Of a stretch of 64,000 nt of DNA, positions 6,049-13,104 are shown piece by piece. The stretch covers positions 186,001 to 250,000 of the forward strand of contig NZ_CANLYL010000001.1 of the NCBI RefSeq assembly GCF_947495275.1, in the 5' to 3' direction. The notes below the pieces were generated by a model. That model saw only the letters and a list, made by a program, of their open reading frames with translations, did not search any database and had not been told where the DNA came from. This DNA comes from an uncultured Roseobacter sp. Lineage in GTDB: Bacteria; Pseudomonadota; Alphaproteobacteria; Rhodobacterales; Rhodobacteraceae. Every line of letters begins with the position of its first letter. Positions within the stretch are counted from its first letter, which is position 1. The translations under genes and the position numbers were made by a program.

Positions 6049-8634
6049 CTACCCGAGCTTTCGCTGAGGCTCTTCGGTCGGTGAGAGAAAATTTTTCAAA
6101 TGCTCAAACGACATGGGCTCTGCAAAATGAAATCCTTGCAGTGTCTGACAACCCATTGATTGCATCATTTCAGCATGCATATAGGTTTCCACACCTTCTG
6201 CCGTAACGGAAATCTGCAAGGATTCGGCTATCCCGATGATGGACCGAACCATGTTTTGACAGACCTCTGTTTGTGGCGCACCGTAGACCAGGCGTTGGTC
6301 GATTTTCAGCACATCAGGGCGCACCCGCATCAAGCTGATCATCGATGCATGTCCCGAGCCAAAGTCGTCAATCTCAATCGAAAGCCCCTTTTCCCGCAGC
6401 AGGTCGAGGGTGAAATCGAGGTACTCCGGCTGATCATCCAGAAACACGGATTCCAGAATTTCAAAAGACACTTTTGTATCCTTGAACTCGCGCGCATCTA
6501 TGGCGACCAGAAGCTCAGGGTCGGAAAGCCTGCTGGCTGTGACATTGAATGACACCTTGGGCAGCGCAATCTGCGCCCGCTCCAGTTCGGCCACGTCTTC
6601 AAGCGCCTTGTTCATGACCATGGCATCAAGGGTCGTCAGCATGGACAATTGTTCGGCGACTTCCAAAAACCCGGCCGGAGAGACAACGTTCCCATTTGGC
6701 TGAGCCCAACGGGCCAGCACTTCGACGCCAACCACCTCCAGGGTCTGAGCGTCGATTTGTGGTTGGTAGAAGGGCACGAATTCACCGCGTTGAAGACCAA
6801 GGCGTATCTGTTCTGCGACGTCGCGGACTTCGACCACTTTGTCGTGTTCCGCGGGCCCGTAAGTGATGACCTGGCTGCGTCCGCGCTCCTTTGCGATATA
6901 GAGCGCCGCATCTGCCGCACGAACCAGATCCTCTTTTTCAACGAGCGCGCATTCTTCGGTTGCAACACCAAAACTTGCGCCAACACTTAGTGATTTACCC
7001 TCGTAATCCATGGGCTCCGAAATTCTCGAAAGCATGTTGTTCGCAAGTCTTTGCGCATTCACCAAGGAACCGTCTTTGCCCAACAAAACGATAAACTCAT
7101 CCCCGCCAATACGCACCGGAATGTCGTGTTCCGTGATCTCTTCCCTGAGAATTTGAGCGACACGGCACAAAACCTCGTCTCCGGCCTCATGCCCCATCGT
7201 ATCGTTGACATTCTTGAAATGATCCAAATCAATCCGAATAATCGCGATCGATGCCTCGTCCGATTTTTCGGCGCATAACTTTTCAAACGTGACATTGAAA
7301 CACCTTCGGTTCGGCAATCCCGTCAGTTCGTCATGCAGGGCCTGCCATTCCATGGCTGATGTTGTCGAAATCAGGTTTTTCTCATATTTCTTTTGGTCCG
7401 TAATATCGCTTGAAATAGCCATAAATCCATAAGCCTGACCTTCGTCATCAAACAGAGTGGAAATGCTCAGTCTGATCCAATATTCTTCGCTTCCAAACCG
7501 ATAATTAAGCAGTTCAACCGTGATTGGTTGGCGCGCGTCCAGAGCCTTGCGAATTTCGGCGCGGGTTGCCGGATCGGTTTCCGGACCCTGCAACAAGCTC
7601 GTCGGTTTTTTCCCTATGATATCCTTGGCCTTGTACCCAGATCTTCGTTCAAATGCAGGATTATGCCAGATAATCCGCGTTTCTAGGTCCGTGATCAGGA
7701 TCGCTTCTTCTGCCTTTCGGGCAATTGATGCAAGTTCACTCAACTCCTTTTGCTGCTCTCGAAGCTTATTGCGCGACCTTTCGACTTCCGCATGAGGGCG
7801 CAGAATCGTTTGACGCCCCAGCCAGCCAAAGATGCTGAAGGGCAACAGCAGTGCCGCGGATATTGCAACAATTGCCTTGAGAACCAATTCCTGACCGATG
7901 GTTGCGAATAAAGTTCCCTGAGAGTTCAATACCAGTTGCATCCCGGTTTTCCCGACCGGGACGACAATGGCATCCTGGCGCTCAAGATCAGCTGACCAAG
8001 GATCATCCGCATCCACAATGCGCGCCTGCATGGCGATTTGCCCGGGCCCGACCTCATCCTGGCGTAAATCAACTTCCAAGACAGATGTCAGCACGCCCTC
8101 GACAAAGCCTTGATTCATGATCGGTGCCGCAATCAGTATCTCCTGAAAGCTGGTGTTCACGGCCCGATAGGTATCAACTGTTCTGATCGCAAGGGTCTGT
8201 GTCTCCAGAACCTCCCTGGCCAGTTCACCCGCAGCCGAGGTTGTCTCAAGAGAATGTGACCTTGTCGATACCATGTGAAAACTCAACGCACTTCCCTCAA
8301 AATCGAAGACGAAAAACTCGGAAACGTTTTCGGGGACGACGGTATCTTGCAGACGATCAACAAAGGCGTCGTCGCGTGTGACATCGCCGATGACAAAGGA
8401 CAAAAGCGATGGTTCGGATGCCAGATAAACAGTCAATGATGCACTGGGGTCGAGAACAGAATAGATCCTTGACGCTTCCTGCTTGGCCTGGCTGATCACC
8501 GCACGCTTGTGCGTTTCGGTCAAAAACGGCTTTGCCGTGACCCAGACAGCAACCGCAGCCGTCGCCAAGGCAAAGGCAAAGCTGCACGCCAACAAAATCC
8601 AGAAGACCTTGTTTATGGACACGGCTTTTCGCAT
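6049..8634 (-). CDS. Membrane PAS-GGDEF-EAL cyclic-di-GMP enzyme
   Basis: 861 residues. Order: TM1 (about 10-32), a periplasmic sensor of about 215 residues, TM2 (about 250-272), a PAS domain (about 302-412), GGDEF (about 428-590) and EAL (about 605-850). The cyclase motif GGDEF is intact (510-514). The usual RxxD inhibitory site has Thr in place of Arg (TEHD, 501-504), so product inhibition is probably lost. The EAL signature reads EVL (638-640), but Asn697, Glu725, the DDFGSG loop (756-761), Lys777, Glu813 and Gln833 are present, so phosphodiesterase activity is plausible. Its ATG directly follows the stop of the binding-protein gene, which implies cotranslation. The likely role is to turn a periplasmic ligand signal into c-di-GMP change; net direction unknown. 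Confidence 0.9.
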   Translation of the reverse strand: MRKAVSINKVFWILLACSFAFALATAAVAVWVTAKPFLTETHKRAVISQAKQEASRIYSVLDPSASLTVYLASEPSLLSFVIGDVTRDDAFVDRLQDTVVPENVSEFFVFDFEGSALSFHMVSTRSHSLETTSAAGELAREVLETQTLAIRTVDTYRAVNTSFQEILIAAPIMNQGFVEGVLTSVLEVDLRQDEVGPGQIAMQARIVDADDPWSADLERQDAIVVPVGKTGMQLVLNSQGTLFATIGQELVLKAIVAISAALLLPFSIFGWLGRQTILRPHAEVERSRNKLREQQKELSELASIARKAEEAILITDLETRIIWHNPAFERRSGYKAKDIIGKKPTSLLQGPETDPATRAEIRKALDARQPITVELLNYRFGSEEYWIRLSISTLFDDEGQAYGFMAISSDITDQKKYEKNLISTTSAMEWQALHDELTGLPNRRCFNVTFEKLCAEKSDEASIAIIRIDLDHFKNVNDTMGHEAGDEVLCRVAQILREEITEHDIPVRIGGDEFIVLLGKDGSLVNAQRLANNMLSRISEPMDYEGKSLSVGASFGVATEECALVEKEDLVRAADAALYIAKERGRSQVITYGPAEHDKVVEVRDVAEQIRLGLQRGEFVPFYQPQIDAQTLEVVGVEVLARWAQPNGNVVSPAGFLEVAEQLSMLTTLDAMVMNKALEDVAELERAQIALPKVSFNVTASRLSDPELLVAIDAREFKDTKVSFEILESVFLDDQPEYLDFTLDLLREKGLSIEIDDFGSGHASMISLMRVRPDVLKIDQRLVYGAPQTEVCQNMVRSIIGIAESLQISVTAEGVETYMHAEMMQSMGCQTLQGFHFAEPMSFEHLKNFLSPTEEPQRKLG

Positions 8635-9888
8635 CTATTGATGAGGCTCCACCGTTTCGGACAAAACCAGCTGACCGGACTCGGAGAATGACACCACGCA
8701 AAGATCCTGTAATCCCAGGGCCTCATGTGCATCCTGAGACGCATCGCTATAGGGCGCAAATGGCCTGTTGTAGGTTTTCAATATGCCTTCGACCGGTTCG
8801 GACAGATTTTCCAGAGAGCTGCGAAACAGATTGCGACGATCAACGATTGATCCGTCTGCCCAACCGTCCATTTCCATCGCATTGCTTAGGGCGGCAATGA
8901 GCAGCCTTGTCAGATCGTAACCATGCACGAAGCCAGTGGCCGCAGGAACGTCCGACAAGCGTTTGAAGGGTCGGACTTCGGTACTGGCGTTTTTGAGCGC
9001 TTGAACCAGTTCCGCCCGGCCCTTGCCCTCGACCTCAAGGCCGCAAGTTTGCAGAACTTCGATCTGCAAATCCGAGCGCACGCTGTGGGGCACCTGCGCT
9101 ACGAAATCGCCGGACAATATCCCCCAGTGGCTGATGATCCGGATGTCAGCAGATTGCTGATGAAGCTCATTGACCAGAAGCGCTCCTTCGCGGGCCCTCG
9201 ATAGCATGATCGCGCAATCCGCATTCGTCATTTTGATTTTTTCAGCAATTGTCCGTGCGCTGGCAGGCCCAAGCGAGGAAGAAAACATGAAAACAACCGG
9301 CGCAGGCACACCAGCTGCTTGGAATGCGTCACCCATGGTAACGCGGTTGGCGCGTCCCCATCCGGTGTCAACCAACAGCAAGACGGTTTGCTCACACTCG
9401 ATGTTGTTAAGCGCATGTCCCACAAGGAACGGGCCCGCTTTTGTGTCGTCGACAGACAACCGGAAAATCCAGTTTAGCTGATCGTCGTCCGGTCTGGTGA
9501 TTGGTCCCGCCGCGGACCAGGGCAATAGAAGTGGAATACCGCTTTCATTGATGTCCTGGCGGTGCGTCAGATAGGGAGGCGAATGGACCCCGCCGATCAC
9601 CGCGATCCCGGTTGGGTCCTCCGTAAAGGCCCTCAAATTGGAATAAGATCGCTTTGAATTCGCGCGGTGATCTTTTGGAACGATCTCTATCTCAAAATTG
9701 CCGACCCGGTTTGCCACATCGGACATCGCCGTCCGGACCCCCAATTCGATGGCTTCAGCCGCCGGGCGTGCCATGGAATAATCGGCATCAATGTAGATAC
9801 GCAGCTTCTCACCCGCAACGGACTGCCCCGCAAAACAACAAACCAAAAGAAACCAGATTACACGCATAAGACCAACCATCGCATTCAA
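8635..9888 (-). CDS. Periplasmic ligand-binding protein (type I, Liv/amide-binding fold)
   Basis: 417 residues with an N-terminal signal sequence (VIWFLLVCCFAGQSVAG). The body resembles type I periplasmic binding proteins: AIELGVRTAMSDV, GIAVIGGVHSPPYL and WSAAGPITRPDDDQ recall the branched-chain amino acid/amide binders. No ABC permease or ATPase is next to it. Instead it ends exactly where the GGDEF/EAL gene starts, so it probably serves as the sensing subunit of that c-di-GMP enzyme; this is inferred from gene order. A second in-frame ATG seven codons downstream (MRVIWFLL) could be the true start. The ligand is unknown. Confidence 0.78.
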   Translation of the reverse strand: MNAMVGLMRVIWFLLVCCFAGQSVAGEKLRIYIDADYSMARPAAEAIELGVRTAMSDVANRVGNFEIEIVPKDHRANSKRSYSNLRAFTEDPTGIAVIGGVHSPPYLTHRQDINESGIPLLLPWSAAGPITRPDDDQLNWIFRLSVDDTKAGPFLVGHALNNIECEQTVLLLVDTGWGRANRVTMGDAFQAAGVPAPVVFMFSSSLGPASARTIAEKIKMTNADCAIMLSRAREGALLVNELHQQSADIRIISHWGILSGDFVAQVPHSVRSDLQIEVLQTCGLEVEGKGRAELVQALKNASTEVRPFKRLSDVPAATGFVHGYDLTRLLIAALSNAMEMDGWADGSIVDRRNLFRSSLENLSEPVEGILKTYNRPFAPYSDASQDAHEALGLQDLCVVSFSESGQLVLSETVEPHQ

Positions 9889-10077: not shown

Positions 10078-13000
10078 TCAGGCGGTGTAACCTGCAACGA
10101 CCTGCAATAGCTTGAAGGACGTCGCGGCATCGTTTTCCACAACTGCGAGGAATTCTTCTGCCCCGAGACGCAAGGCTTCAACGTCGGTTTCGGCGCGCAT
10201 CGTCAATGCACGCGGTACATTCCGGATCAGACCCAGCTCTCCCACAAGCGTCCCCGGTCCCACCATGGCGACATGGGTTTCCCGCGCGCCATTTTCAGGG
10301 TTGAGAAGCTCCGCCGCCCCGGACAGGATCATGTAGGCGCCATCTCGGGGATCGTCGTCCTTGTTGAAGATGACGTCTCCTGCTGCTGCCGTGTACCATT
10401 TCGCGCCGAAAGCGAGCAATCGCAACTGCTTGCGGCTCATTCCGGAAAACAGGGTCGTAGCCTCCAGAGCTCTGACCTTACGCAATAAATCTGCGCCTGC
10501 GGCACCGTCCTCCGTATCCTCATCAACCTGGCTCGCAGACACCATGCGGCCCTGCTTGATTTCAAGGAAAACATCGTATTGATCCGGATCGTCGAAGGCT
10601 TCTCCCAGCAGGATGATGGTGGTGTCTGGCAGCAGCGCGCGCAGCTTCGCAATCACCTCGTCGCGAAGCTTGGTATCATAACCAGACAAGACCTGTTCGA
10701 GCACCAACACATCCGGTCGTTTGACAACAGCGCGGCTGATGGCCAAAGGCTCGACGAAAGCCGTCGGGAGATTTTCGCCGCCAAGAGACAGTTCGAAATC
10801 ATACATCAGCGCCATTACTTCAGCCTTCAACCCTTCAGCCTGCAAAACATCCGACACAATTTTTCTCAGATCATCGGCGCGCGCACCGGCGCTGTCGGAA
10901 ACCTTGCCAAAGATGGCGTTCTCCAAAACGGAAAGACCGGGTGCCACGGTGGCGGCGTTGAGAGGGGCATAGAGATCGCCCAGGCCTTCGCGGATGCTCA
11001 GCCCGTAGTCCGCACGAAGTTCGAGAACCTTCTCTTTCATCGCGTCCGAAAAGGCCGGACCGATCTGCTCCGCCGTGATTTGCGCAAGCACGGACATCAA
11101 CCTGGCCCTTGCGGCGGCATCAATCTCTCCGCTCGGGGTCTGTGCACGTTTTCGCAACGACTGGACCGACTCTTCAAACAGAGCCGGGTCGAGGCCCAAT
11201 TTGCGGAAAAGAGGATGTTCTGTGCCGTCCGTGCCAAAAATCTGGTTCAACAGCTCGACAACATCCGCAGAGAATTCAACCAGCCCCGCTTCGAGCCCCA
11301 GTTTCCGCATCAGATCACGCAGATCGGTCTGGCTGACAAGCTCCTGTTGCGTCACCGGTCGCCGCATGGTCGCAAAGAGGAGGTTGTTGATCACCGGAAG
11401 CGCGGGATTATATGTCGCCGGATCAAAGCGATGCACATGCCGCGCCAGATCGGCCTCGACAATCGCCTCCCAGACCTTCGGACGGACAGCGACAAGCCCG
11501 CGCGCAAGTTCGGTATGTTCCGACAGATCGGTTTTCTGATCCAGTGAACGCCGGAAAAACGCCCCGCCTGAGCCCATGGTATCCAGCAATGTCAGCCACC
11601 AGCTCTGAACCTCGGCCCGGGTCGAGAGATTTGCAAGCGAGGGATCAAGCCATTCCGCCTCCGTCGCGTCAGCGCTGTTACCCGCCGCCTGCGCTTCCAT
11701 TGCAGTCGCATGTGGCACGGTCATGCTGTCCGATTGGGGTTCTTGCTTCAGCGACATCATTGTGTTGTCCCCAAAGGAGCCCCGAAAAAGCACAGGGCGG
11801 GTATTGGCATGCCCTATCCGGTTGGCAATGACGGTCTGATGCAATTGCGTCAAGTCATGCCCCGCCATCACCACCTCGCCTGTTGCAGGCAGCACCTCTC
11901 TGGTCAAAACACCTGCCAACGCCTGACGGTCTTCGTCGCTTGGTGCCTCGATGGCCACCAGGGTCCCTTTTCCAAAGGCAGCGGTGATATGTTCAAGCAC
12001 CGGGTTCCCGTCCATATCCGTGACGGTCACATCCCGAAGCTCGATCGTTCCTGCCAATCCGGGAATGTTCGCTGGCCCACCCTGCATCAGTTTCTCGTCA
12101 ACTACCGTGGCTGGCGAAAATTTTTCGGTGACGGTTTCCCAGCGCAGACCCATATCTTGAGACTGATTGTAATAGGTCAGCAATTCCTTCCACGGCGAAC
12201 TCAAATCCTTGTAGGCCGCCAATGCAGCAACCAGAGCGCCAAGCGACACGGCCCCCTGAATGACAAGATAGCCGCCAACTGAGAAGAAGAAGAAAGGCGT
12301 CAGTTGAGTGATGAAGTTGTTGATGAACTTCATGAAAAACTTCTTCTTGTAGATCTTCAGCCGGATATTGAAAACGATCCCCAGGCGTTCGCTGATCAGG
12401 GCGAGCCGGTATCTCCAACCGCCGTGGATGCGCAGATCGGAGGCACCCTGCGCACTTTCGCCGATCAGAGCCGCAAGTTGCCGGACCTCCTTGATGCGCT
12501 GTTTGTTCATCAGATTGATCTGGCGCTGCAGTTTCGGGATCAGCCAGGCCTGCAGCGGGATCAGGGCAACGGCGGCAAGCCCGAACCAGACGCTTTGCAA
12601 AAACAGGAAGACAAGGATGGTGATCATTTGGCCCGCCTGCAGGACGGGTTGGGTCAACGCGTCCCCCATGAGCCCGCCCATCGGTTCCGTCTCGCCGGTG
12701 ATCATCGCCACAAGTTCACCTTGCGAAGTTCTGCGGAAGTAAGGTTTGGGGAATCGCAGCATCCGCGAGATCAAAGTATAGCGCAGGCGTCGCAACAACC
12801 GTTCGGACAGGATGCCCTTCATGGTGTTAATCCGCATTTTCAACAACCCATGCATCAGCACGGACCCCAGGAATGCGGCACATAGCAGCGCCAGAAATCC
12901 AACCTGGCTGATGACGATGCCGAAGACTTCAATCTGATTGCTCACCGAACCGATCGCATCGTTGATGATGCGCTTGGGCAATTCCAGCGTCAGGTACAAG

Positions 13001-13104
13001 AAAGGAAACAACGCGCAGGTAAAGATCAGCAGGATCAATTGGTCGCGCTTTGAGTGCTTCCAAATAAATTGAAAGATCGACTTTTCGATGTGCCGCACCC
13101 CCAT
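10078..13104 (-). CDS. ABC-exporter-like protein with dead nucleotide-binding domain and C-terminal cNMP-binding domain
   Basis: 1008 residues. Residues 1-320 form a six-helix exporter-type membrane domain. An ABC nucleotide-binding domain follows (about 351-450 and 720-855), split by an insert of about 270 residues. Every catalytic site is altered. The Walker A stretch is APSDEDRQAL (387-396), with no G-x4-GKS/T. The Q-loop glutamine is replaced. The signature is LSLGGENLP (772-780). Walker B ends LEQ (802-804) instead of DE. The H-loop histidine is Glu835. Residues 880-1000 form a cyclic-nucleotide-binding domain with an intact phosphate cassette, GELGLIRNVPRA (955-966; Glu956, Arg965). It is probably a membrane regulator or receptor rather than a pump. 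It stands alone transcriptionally. Function unknown. Confidence 0.85.
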   Translation of the reverse strand: MGVRHIEKSIFQFIWKHSKRDQLILLIFTCALFPFLYLTLELPKRIINDAIGSVSNQIEVFGIVISQVGFLALLCAAFLGSVLMHGLLKMRINTMKGILSERLLRRLRYTLISRMLRFPKPYFRRTSQGELVAMITGETEPMGGLMGDALTQPVLQAGQMITILVFLFLQSVWFGLAAVALIPLQAWLIPKLQRQINLMNKQRIKEVRQLAALIGESAQGASDLRIHGGWRYRLALISERLGIVFNIRLKIYKKKFFMKFINNFITQLTPFFFFSVGGYLVIQGAVSLGALVAALAAYKDLSSPWKELLTYYNQSQDMGLRWETVTEKFSPATVVDEKLMQGGPANIPGLAGTIELRDVTVTDMDGNPVLEHITAAFGKGTLVAIEAPSDEDRQALAGVLTREVLPATGEVVMAGHDLTQLHQTVIANRIGHANTRPVLFRGSFGDNTMMSLKQEPQSDSMTVPHATAMEAQAAGNSADATEAEWLDPSLANLSTRAEVQSWWLTLLDTMGSGGAFFRRSLDQKTDLSEHTELARGLVAVRPKVWEAIVEADLARHVHRFDPATYNPALPVINNLLFATMRRPVTQQELVSQTDLRDLMRKLGLEAGLVEFSADVVELLNQIFGTDGTEHPLFRKLGLDPALFEESVQSLRKRAQTPSGEIDAAARARLMSVLAQITAEQIGPAFSDAMKEKVLELRADYGLSIREGLGDLYAPLNAATVAPGLSVLENAIFGKVSDSAGARADDLRKIVSDVLQAEGLKAEVMALMYDFELSLGGENLPTAFVEPLAISRAVVKRPDVLVLEQVLSGYDTKLRDEVIAKLRALLPDTTIILLGEAFDDPDQYDVFLEIKQGRMVSASQVDEDTEDGAAGADLLRKVRALEATTLFSGMSRKQLRLLAFGAKWYTAAAGDVIFNKDDDPRDGAYMILSGAAELLNPENGARETHVAMVGPGTLVGELGLIRNVPRALTMRAETDVEALRLGAEEFLAVVENDAATSFKLLQVVAGYTA

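Follow-up and report, generated by a model that had tools for sequence, protein, structure and literature searches.

ATP-binding cassette (ABC) exporters are textbook ATP machines. CFTR and SUR are ABC proteins that have turned into a channel or a regulator, with ATP binding kept. Here we describe a gene in a 64,000-nucleotide stretch of DNA from an uncultured Roseobacter sp. (contig NZ_CANLYL010000001.1, positions 186,001 to 250,000; this whole stretch is referred to as the window) that encodes a pseudo-ABC exporter, that is, a protein with an exporter-type transmembrane domain (TMD), a nucleotide-binding domain (NBD) without its catalytic residues, a long insert within that NBD, and a fused C-terminal cyclic-nucleotide-binding domain (CNBD). 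The exporter fold of its family appears to be reused for gating or regulation as in CFTR and SUR, but without a conserved ATP site. We place the window protein in an old family, found mostly in Alphaproteobacteria, whose members would work without an ATPase, as membrane devices gated by the CNBD in the assembly or translocation of surface glycans; to this reading, which is built on sequence comparison, we give a probability of about 0.5.

The family shares its membrane domain and NBD fold with the type IV ABC exporters (MsbA, TmrAB, PCAT1 and P-glycoprotein). It differs from them in that the full catalytic set is absent from every member examined, and in an insert of about 260 residues with repeated elements, to which the window protein adds its CNBD. 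HetC of Nostoc PCC 7120 (PMC10986499) is an ABC exporter with a CNBD needed in vivo; this CNBD is N-terminal and binds ppGpp in vitro, and the protein also has a C39 peptidase and an essential ATPase residue. Both are CNBD-linked exporters, but in our family the CNBD is C-terminal or separate, the ATPase is degenerate, and no C39 peptidase match was obtained for the window protein (Pfam, E≤1). Exporters with one degenerate nucleotide-binding site are natural cases of catalytic-residue loss in which one composite site is reported to be canonical (PMC7756269, which also covers CFTR, or ABCC7); in our family a homodimer would have two dead sites. Neither an exporter with a CNBD nor one with a single dead site is new. 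For a family without an intact catalytic set, with a Q-loop-like repeat insert and a near-constant CNBD partner, no description was found in the open-licence literature.

Loss of the catalytic set in a conserved protein

The window gene is a single uninterrupted open reading frame (ORF) of 1008 codons on the minus strand, and an earlier note on this DNA had its frame and coordinates (10078-13104) right. The NBD motifs were read from an alignment to three P-loop-bearing exporters of the same genome, and seven catalytic features were scored: the Walker A Lys and Ser/Thr, the Q-loop Gln, LSGGQ, the Walker B Asp, the catalytic Glu and the H-loop His. The window protein keeps 0/7. Walker A, Q-loop, signature, Walker B and H-loop are all changed, as the earlier note had stated, and the D-loop Asp (810) is retained.

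The exporter fold itself is well recognized. Pfam searches with E values up to 1 found ABC_membrane (residues 59-295, E 1e-18) and cNMP_binding (907-992, E 2.8e-16) in the window protein and did not detect ABC_tran, which was detected in both less degraded homologues scanned. The NBD fold is present in the AlphaFold2 (AF2) model and in profile matches flanking the insert on either side. The model, built from 49 aligned rows, has a mean predicted local distance difference test (pLDDT) score of 83.5 and a predicted template-modelling (pTM) score of 0.71; pLDDT is mostly 75-96 across the NBD and insert, and below 50 at residues 166-179 and 300-302 (membrane domain) and 857-867. The 50 Foldseek matches listed are type IV exporters and relatives, e.g., P-glycoprotein, TmrAB (TM-score 0.61 by target), PCAT1 and CFTR. 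In this model the window protein has the six-helix membrane domain of a type IV exporter, two short stretches of it modelled with low confidence. Pfam, AF2 and Foldseek agree on the exporter membrane domain that had been proposed, and the structure prediction suggested at the time returned an exporter fold.

The loss of motifs is a property of the family. Counts were made on 120 family rows, 89 of them below 80% identity to one another; L130 and L172 are one gene, L130 being cut short, and two poorly aligned NBD-like remnants of one family (L132, L133) were excluded. All seven features occur together in 0/120 rows and in 0/89 of the less redundant ones, the maximum being 4/7, and both GxxGxGK[ST] and LSGGQ are found in 0/120 rows. 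The alignment of homologues thus contained no relative with an intact set; such a relative would have spoken against a family-wide loss. Degradation is graded among the groups: the 33 Rhodobacterales rows keep 0-2 features, the seven Azospirillum rows 0, the five Oceanospirillaceae rows 1, and the 75 remaining rows 0-4, with 19/75 keeping 0. In the other rows of the non-redundant set (n=64), the Walker A Ser/Thr is replaced by Glu or Asp in 53 cases and the Walker A Lys is kept in 36, with Asn or Ser in place of the Walker B Asp in 45. Members of the form f156 (L172, L127, L128, L130) have a longer insert and retain GKS and DE, with signature and H-loop lost; they may be the best candidates for residual ATP binding.

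These substitutions allow another reading, namely that ATP is used in a non-canonical way, by binding without hydrolysis or by catalysis in which the Mg ligands have shifted (an acidic residue, Glu or Asp, replacing the Walker A Ser/Thr, combined with Walker B Asp to Asn or Ser). The acidic residue occurs in 53/89 members, after a Lys in 28 of them, and the Walker B position in those 53 is Asn or Ser in 39 and Asp in 7, compared with 11 and 18 among the remaining 36, which looks like a relocation of the acid. We consider this reading quite unlikely, given that the window protein retains none of the features and that the catalytic residues change repeatedly on a tree of TMD columns (91 rows; 31 family rows and all controls excluded). 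The minimum numbers of changes on this tree are 16 for the Walker A Lys, 13 for the Walker B Asp, 15 for the Walker B Glu and 18 for the H-loop His, which argues that these residues are free to vary. A second tree, from which one empty control and 30 family rows, near-duplicate or odd, had been removed, was rooted with exporters of the window genome; this rooting was rejected because the outgroup branches are saturated (length 10), and the order of loss was therefore not inferred.

Could the window gene simply be a decaying pseudogene? Every NBD motif is lost, as decay would produce, but its 1008-codon frame is intact, full-length copies of the window type (65-100% identity) occur in 18/19 genus genomes searched, and the ratios of nonsynonymous to synonymous substitution (dN/dS, by Nei-Gojobori) against four relatives are 0.09, 0.08, 0.15 and 0.18 over the whole gene, rough values because dS is close to saturation. 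Against L033, dN/dS is 0.05 in the TMD, 0.03 in the CNBD and 0.09-0.13 in the NBD and insert; it reaches up to 0.33 in one NBD piece against L056. By these sequence measures the gene is no decayed copy and is under purifying selection, so that a pseudogene is extremely improbable and the possibility that this copy alone had decayed, raised in the earlier note, did not materialize. A second paralogue, 51% identical, lies elsewhere in the window genome, and its type (49-51% identity) is found in 19/19 of the genus genomes.

Conservation is also distributed in an unusual manner. Identity to six relatives is 81-91% in the TMD, 73-89% in the CNBD and 59-73% in the NBD, whereas in one canonical exporter from the same six genomes TMD (64-96%) and NBD (66-92%) are no more than 4 points apart in any pair. 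The TMD and CNBD are conserved above the NBD, unlike in an ordinary exporter, which suggests that constraint has shifted from the ATPase to the membrane domain and the sensor.

The insert and the cyclic-nucleotide-binding domain

The insert lies in the NBD where it had been placed, and its extent (Table 1) is close to the 270 residues first given. It has no Pfam match (E up to 1), a single match among PDB profiles (E 0.15, a designed protein) and no PDB match by Foldseek at E≤0.001, and its assignment to a known domain was rejected on these grounds. It contains elements that resemble the Q-loop/ENLLFG region of the NBD itself. In a comparison of family-column profiles (116 rows; L127, L128, L130, L132, L133 and L172 excluded), residues 551-710 and 706-800 share an element, referred to as units 2 and 3, which is laid out as a strand, 'YN...eNLLFG', a helix and '..vL...GL...'. 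The true Q-loop region matches the two units more weakly (probabilities 85 and 87; E 5.9e-6 and 3.9e-6). The controls, which cover units 2 and 3 and not unit 1, gave E values of at least 0.037, both for the two units against eight other family windows and for unit 2 compared with unit 3 after column shuffling (ten shuffles). We infer that the insert grew by copying of the NBD's own Q-loop/helical element, the link to the Q-loop being the weaker part. The tails of the repeats were also considered as copies of the signature helix. Tails t1 and t2 match each other (E 2.1e-8) but gave E values of only 0.075 and 0.21 against the true signature region, no match in either case, and copying of the signature helix is therefore not claimed.

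The phosphate-binding cassette of CNBDs follows the pattern GE[L/I]...R, and the earlier note was correct in calling the cassette of the window protein intact. The solved chains closest to the domain include regulatory subunits of protein kinase A (PKA) and 5d1i, a 131-residue chain named cyclic nucleotide-binding protein. Across 89 CNBDs of the family (42 separate, 47 fused) that passed a profile score, a filter possibly biased towards conserved domains, Gly and Arg occur in 89/89, with Glu in 83/89 and Asp in 6/89. Binding of cAMP or cGMP by the window CNBD may be presumed from its sequence, as in the earlier note; the HetC CNBD binds ppGpp in vitro, so that cAMP and cGMP are candidate ligands among others. 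The window genome has seven matches to class III cyclases, five of them at E<1e-7.

The CNBD is not always part of the same polypeptide. Besides the window protein, 119 members were surveyed. The CNBD is fused in 46; in 62 it has its own gene, which follows downstream in the same orientation after a median gap of about 28 bp (largest 616 bp); and in 11 none was seen. Of these 11, the loci of L127, L128 and L130 are cut off within the gene, and that of L043 leaves just 267 bp beyond it. The tree requires a minimum of two changes between the fused and separate states, and the approximately unbiased test (p 0.25) does not reject an arrangement with all fused members in one clade. Both forms, fused and with ABC and CNBD as separate genes, coexist in one genome, G026 (G026:C106, G026:C61). 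The proposal that an ATPase died and a ligand domain was added is accordingly right as to the loss, which is family-wide, and wrong as to a simple addition.

Table 1. Features of the window gene and its product
Feature	Residues	Position	Strand	Basis and remarks
Pseudo-ABC exporter with fused CNBD, whole gene	1008 aa	10078..13104	(-)	Ortholog L033 in Roseobacter insulae 80% identical
Exporter-type TMD	10-330	12115..13077	(-)	Pfam ABC_membrane; AF2 and Foldseek point to type IV exporters; top conservation in 6/6 comparisons
Former Walker A, APSDEDRQA	387-395	11920..11946	(-)	Alignment to same-genome exporters; P-loop glycines gone, K->R, S/T->Q
Former Q-loop, IGHANTRPVLF; also first part of repeat unit 1	430-440	11785..11817	(-)	Q->T at 435; alignment, profile comparison
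Insert, helical	about 453-710 (~258 aa)	10975..11748	(-)	AF2 of residues 448-714 alone, pLDDT 88.5
Repeat unit 2 core, holds FDPATYNPALPVINNLLFA	557-580	11365..11436	(-)	hhalign to unit 3, probability 98.4, E 5.5e-15
Repeat unit 3 core, running into former signature	712-735	10900..10971	(-)	AF2, hhalign, controls
Former signature, LSGGQ->LPTAF	779-783	10756..10770	(-)	Alignment to same-genome exporters
Former Walker B and D-loop, VLVLEQVLSGYD	799-810	10675..10710	(-)	Walker B D->E803, catalytic E->Q804; alignment
Former H-loop His, now Glu	835	10600..10602	(-)	Alignment to same-genome exporters
CNBD	868-1007	10084..10503	(-)	Pfam cNMP_binding, E 2.8e-16; best PDB matches include PKA regulatory subunits
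Phosphate-binding cassette, GELGLIRNVPRALTMRA	955-971	10192..10242	(-)	Gly, Glu and Arg all present

The glycosyltransferase operon and membrane-only relatives

The neighbourhoods of 75 relative loci were surveyed with flanks of about 6 kb. The recurring neighbours are GT4-type enzymes (40 loci), MurG-like enzymes (33, in a cluster that also includes a deacetylase-like protein), a histidine phosphatase (18) and a small methyltransferase (13); antisense-looking ORF clusters (5, 7, 9, 15 and 16) were ignored. Together they make up an operon that comprises four glycosyltransferases as well as a histidine phosphatase and a deacetylase-like protein, often joined by a PF12692 methyltransferase. The Pfam matches of its proteins are Glycos_transf_1, Glyco_tran_28_C, His_Phos_1 and Methyltransf_17 (PF12692), with a weak DUF2334 match on the protein that, going by a reading of its sequence, we call deacetylase-like. 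The arrangement varies: at L030 all six sugar genes stand ahead of the fused gene on the same strand, and at L144 they are divergent from the ABC gene. No named function for the operon was found in the open-licence literature.

In an evenly drawn sample of 385 alphaproteobacterial genomes, the family and the MurG-like enzyme occur together in 125, the family without the enzyme in 7, the enzyme without the family in 2 and neither in 251. Distances were obtained for 118 positions from the 125 genomes; ABC gene and enzyme lie within 2 kb in 88, farther apart on the same contig in 9 and on other contigs in 21. Of 59 near relatives, a set that overlaps with the 385, 27 have the enzyme; 26 have both (family at E≤1e-30), one (G058) has the enzyme only, and the family alone was seen in 0. 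PF12692 occurs in 25/59 and in 0/14 control genomes; all of its carriers among the 59 (25/25) belong to the 27 that have the enzyme as well. This confinement to enzyme-bearing genomes suggests a role in the same pathway.

In the window genome the operon is found on contig C2 (L198:3302-9736, G000:C2), where it ends with the PF12692 methyltransferase and the deacetylase-like gene; PF12692 is present in a second copy close by. A glycosyltransferase of this genome seemed at first to be broken by one TGA, which was not upheld, as most genus members show the same sign; the simplest explanation is the gene's own stop, with the match overrunning it. Within about 10 kb of operon genes in L198, L204 and L224 there is also a set of peptide-importer-like ABC genes, named by reading (neighbour clusters 10, 13 and 22, plus 17 in two of the three).

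The window gene has other neighbours. Downstream of it on the same strand, at 6049-9888, are genes for a periplasmic binding protein and a PAS-GGDEF-EAL protein, and the window paralogue might have left the glycan system to work with them in c-di-GMP signalling. The order pseudo-ABC, binding protein, GGDEF-EAL recurs in L033 and L201, and a binding protein lies downstream in 5/17 genus loci (1.5 kb flanks). In the other 12/17, however, there is none within 1.5 kb, neither neighbour is present in 11 other loci of the group that were inspected (10 genes), and the genes are separated by a gap of about 190 bp, so we find the idea doubtful and give it very little weight beside that of a CNBD-gated device in glycan assembly.

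At E≤1e-60, matches to the family, some of them partial, were found in 132/385 genomes of the class and in 32/398 of a phylum sample. Beyond Alphaproteobacteria, the family was seen as a membrane-domain-only match in G524 and in five Marinobacterium/Oceanospirillaceae loci. In two Rhodobacteraceae genomes, G021 and G022 (L074, L073, L224-L226), both belonging to the 26 near relatives with family and enzyme, only a membrane domain matches the family at E≤1e-30, with no family CNBD at E≤1e-12. The operon genes are present in G021, in two blocks; G022 has 5/6 sugar genes, and the deacetylase-like gene and PF12692 were not found there. Such membrane-only relatives favour a function within the membrane domain itself. 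Other membrane-domain-only homologues, of about 410 residues with an extra N-terminal stretch and no NBD (L191:5728-6954, L192:5923-7164, L193:1547-2785), adjoin genes of the copper/metal resistance type that, from their sequences, read as multicopper oxidase, cupredoxin-like and MerR regulators.

These relatives bear on the proposal of the earlier note that the protein is a membrane-bound nucleotide sensor or scaffold and not a transporter. A pseudo-ABC protein with a plausible ligand domain stands. A pure scaffold or receptor, which would anchor soluble glycosyltransferases at the membrane and relay nucleotide signals without moving a substrate, would explain why the full catalytic set is missing in 120/120 rows, and it would suit operon proteins whose Pfam matches are limited to glycosyltransferase, phosphatase, methyltransferase and a weak DUF2334, without a membrane domain. 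Yet no part is better conserved than the membrane domain, and two relatives that have most or all operon genes retain nothing else of the protein, which one would hardly expect of a scaffold that acts through its cytosolic parts. We regard a pure scaffold as somewhat unlikely. Nor does the verdict 'not a transporter' follow, as the loss of the ATPase is compatible with ATP-independent translocation through so conserved a membrane domain.

Proposed mechanism and its significance

In the reading that we prefer, the protein would act as a homodimer whose conformation is no longer set by ATP hydrolysis. Among the 25 largest neighbour clusters of the 75 loci, which cover linked genes only, there was no exporter half-transporter besides the family itself, and an importer-type ATPase occurred in five loci. 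Ligand binding by the CNBD would set the state of the dimer, and the pseudo-NBD would relay it to the membrane domain. The membrane domain, in turn, might pass a lipid-linked glycan made by the operon or anchor the enzymes that build it. With the operon on another contig and two paralogues in the window genome, the window copy is to be seen as one of two versions.

Several observations weigh against this reading. The Walker A Lys is kept in 36/89 members, the catalytic Glu in 35/89 and the H-loop His in 21/89, the f156 forms L127 and L172 still have GKS and DE, and some members, the least degraded ones, may bind ATP or hydrolyse it slowly. The three control exporters of the window genome score 7/7, which is partly by construction since they had been selected by P-loop pattern. 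A further exporter of that genome, L004:1063-2805 (-), which fails this pattern, has GEEDLGKQ as Walker A, a Walker B without Asp, and no LSGGQ or H-loop His; it is degenerate in another manner, so a dead NBD is not peculiar to the pseudo-ABC family. As for the sensor, GDL replaces GEL in the cassette of the second paralogue and its near kin, and four Oceanospirillaceae members as well as L175, L184 and L186 lack a CNBD despite room downstream. The window gene does not adjoin glycosyltransferases and is linked to them by family and genome only. The co-occurrence of family and enzyme (Fisher p 8e-90) ignores shared ancestry, and 7/132 genomes have the family without the enzyme. At L227 (G058:C76) a glycosyltransferase, a CNBD and a methyltransferase are encoded, but the ABC gene is missing between the first two. 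Finally, assembly breaks may conceal some adjacency of ABC gene and enzyme.

A bolder version can be put forward tentatively, as a possibility and not as our expectation. Across much of the class, an exporter fold would have lost its ATPase and become a cyclic-nucleotide-gated, ATP-independent flippase or scramblase for lipid-linked glycans. The pseudo-NBD, enlarged by copying of the Q-loop element, would be the lever between sensor and membrane, and some lineages would have dropped both lever and sensor, keeping the bare membrane domain.

With members in about a third of the sampled alphaproteobacterial genomes, a conserved membrane domain and an ATPase that is not conserved, the family offers a test of what the exporter fold can do without ATP hydrolysis. 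It would also provide a pathway context for PF12692 and the glycosyltransferase operon, and it may tie nucleotide signalling to the assembly of surface glycans.

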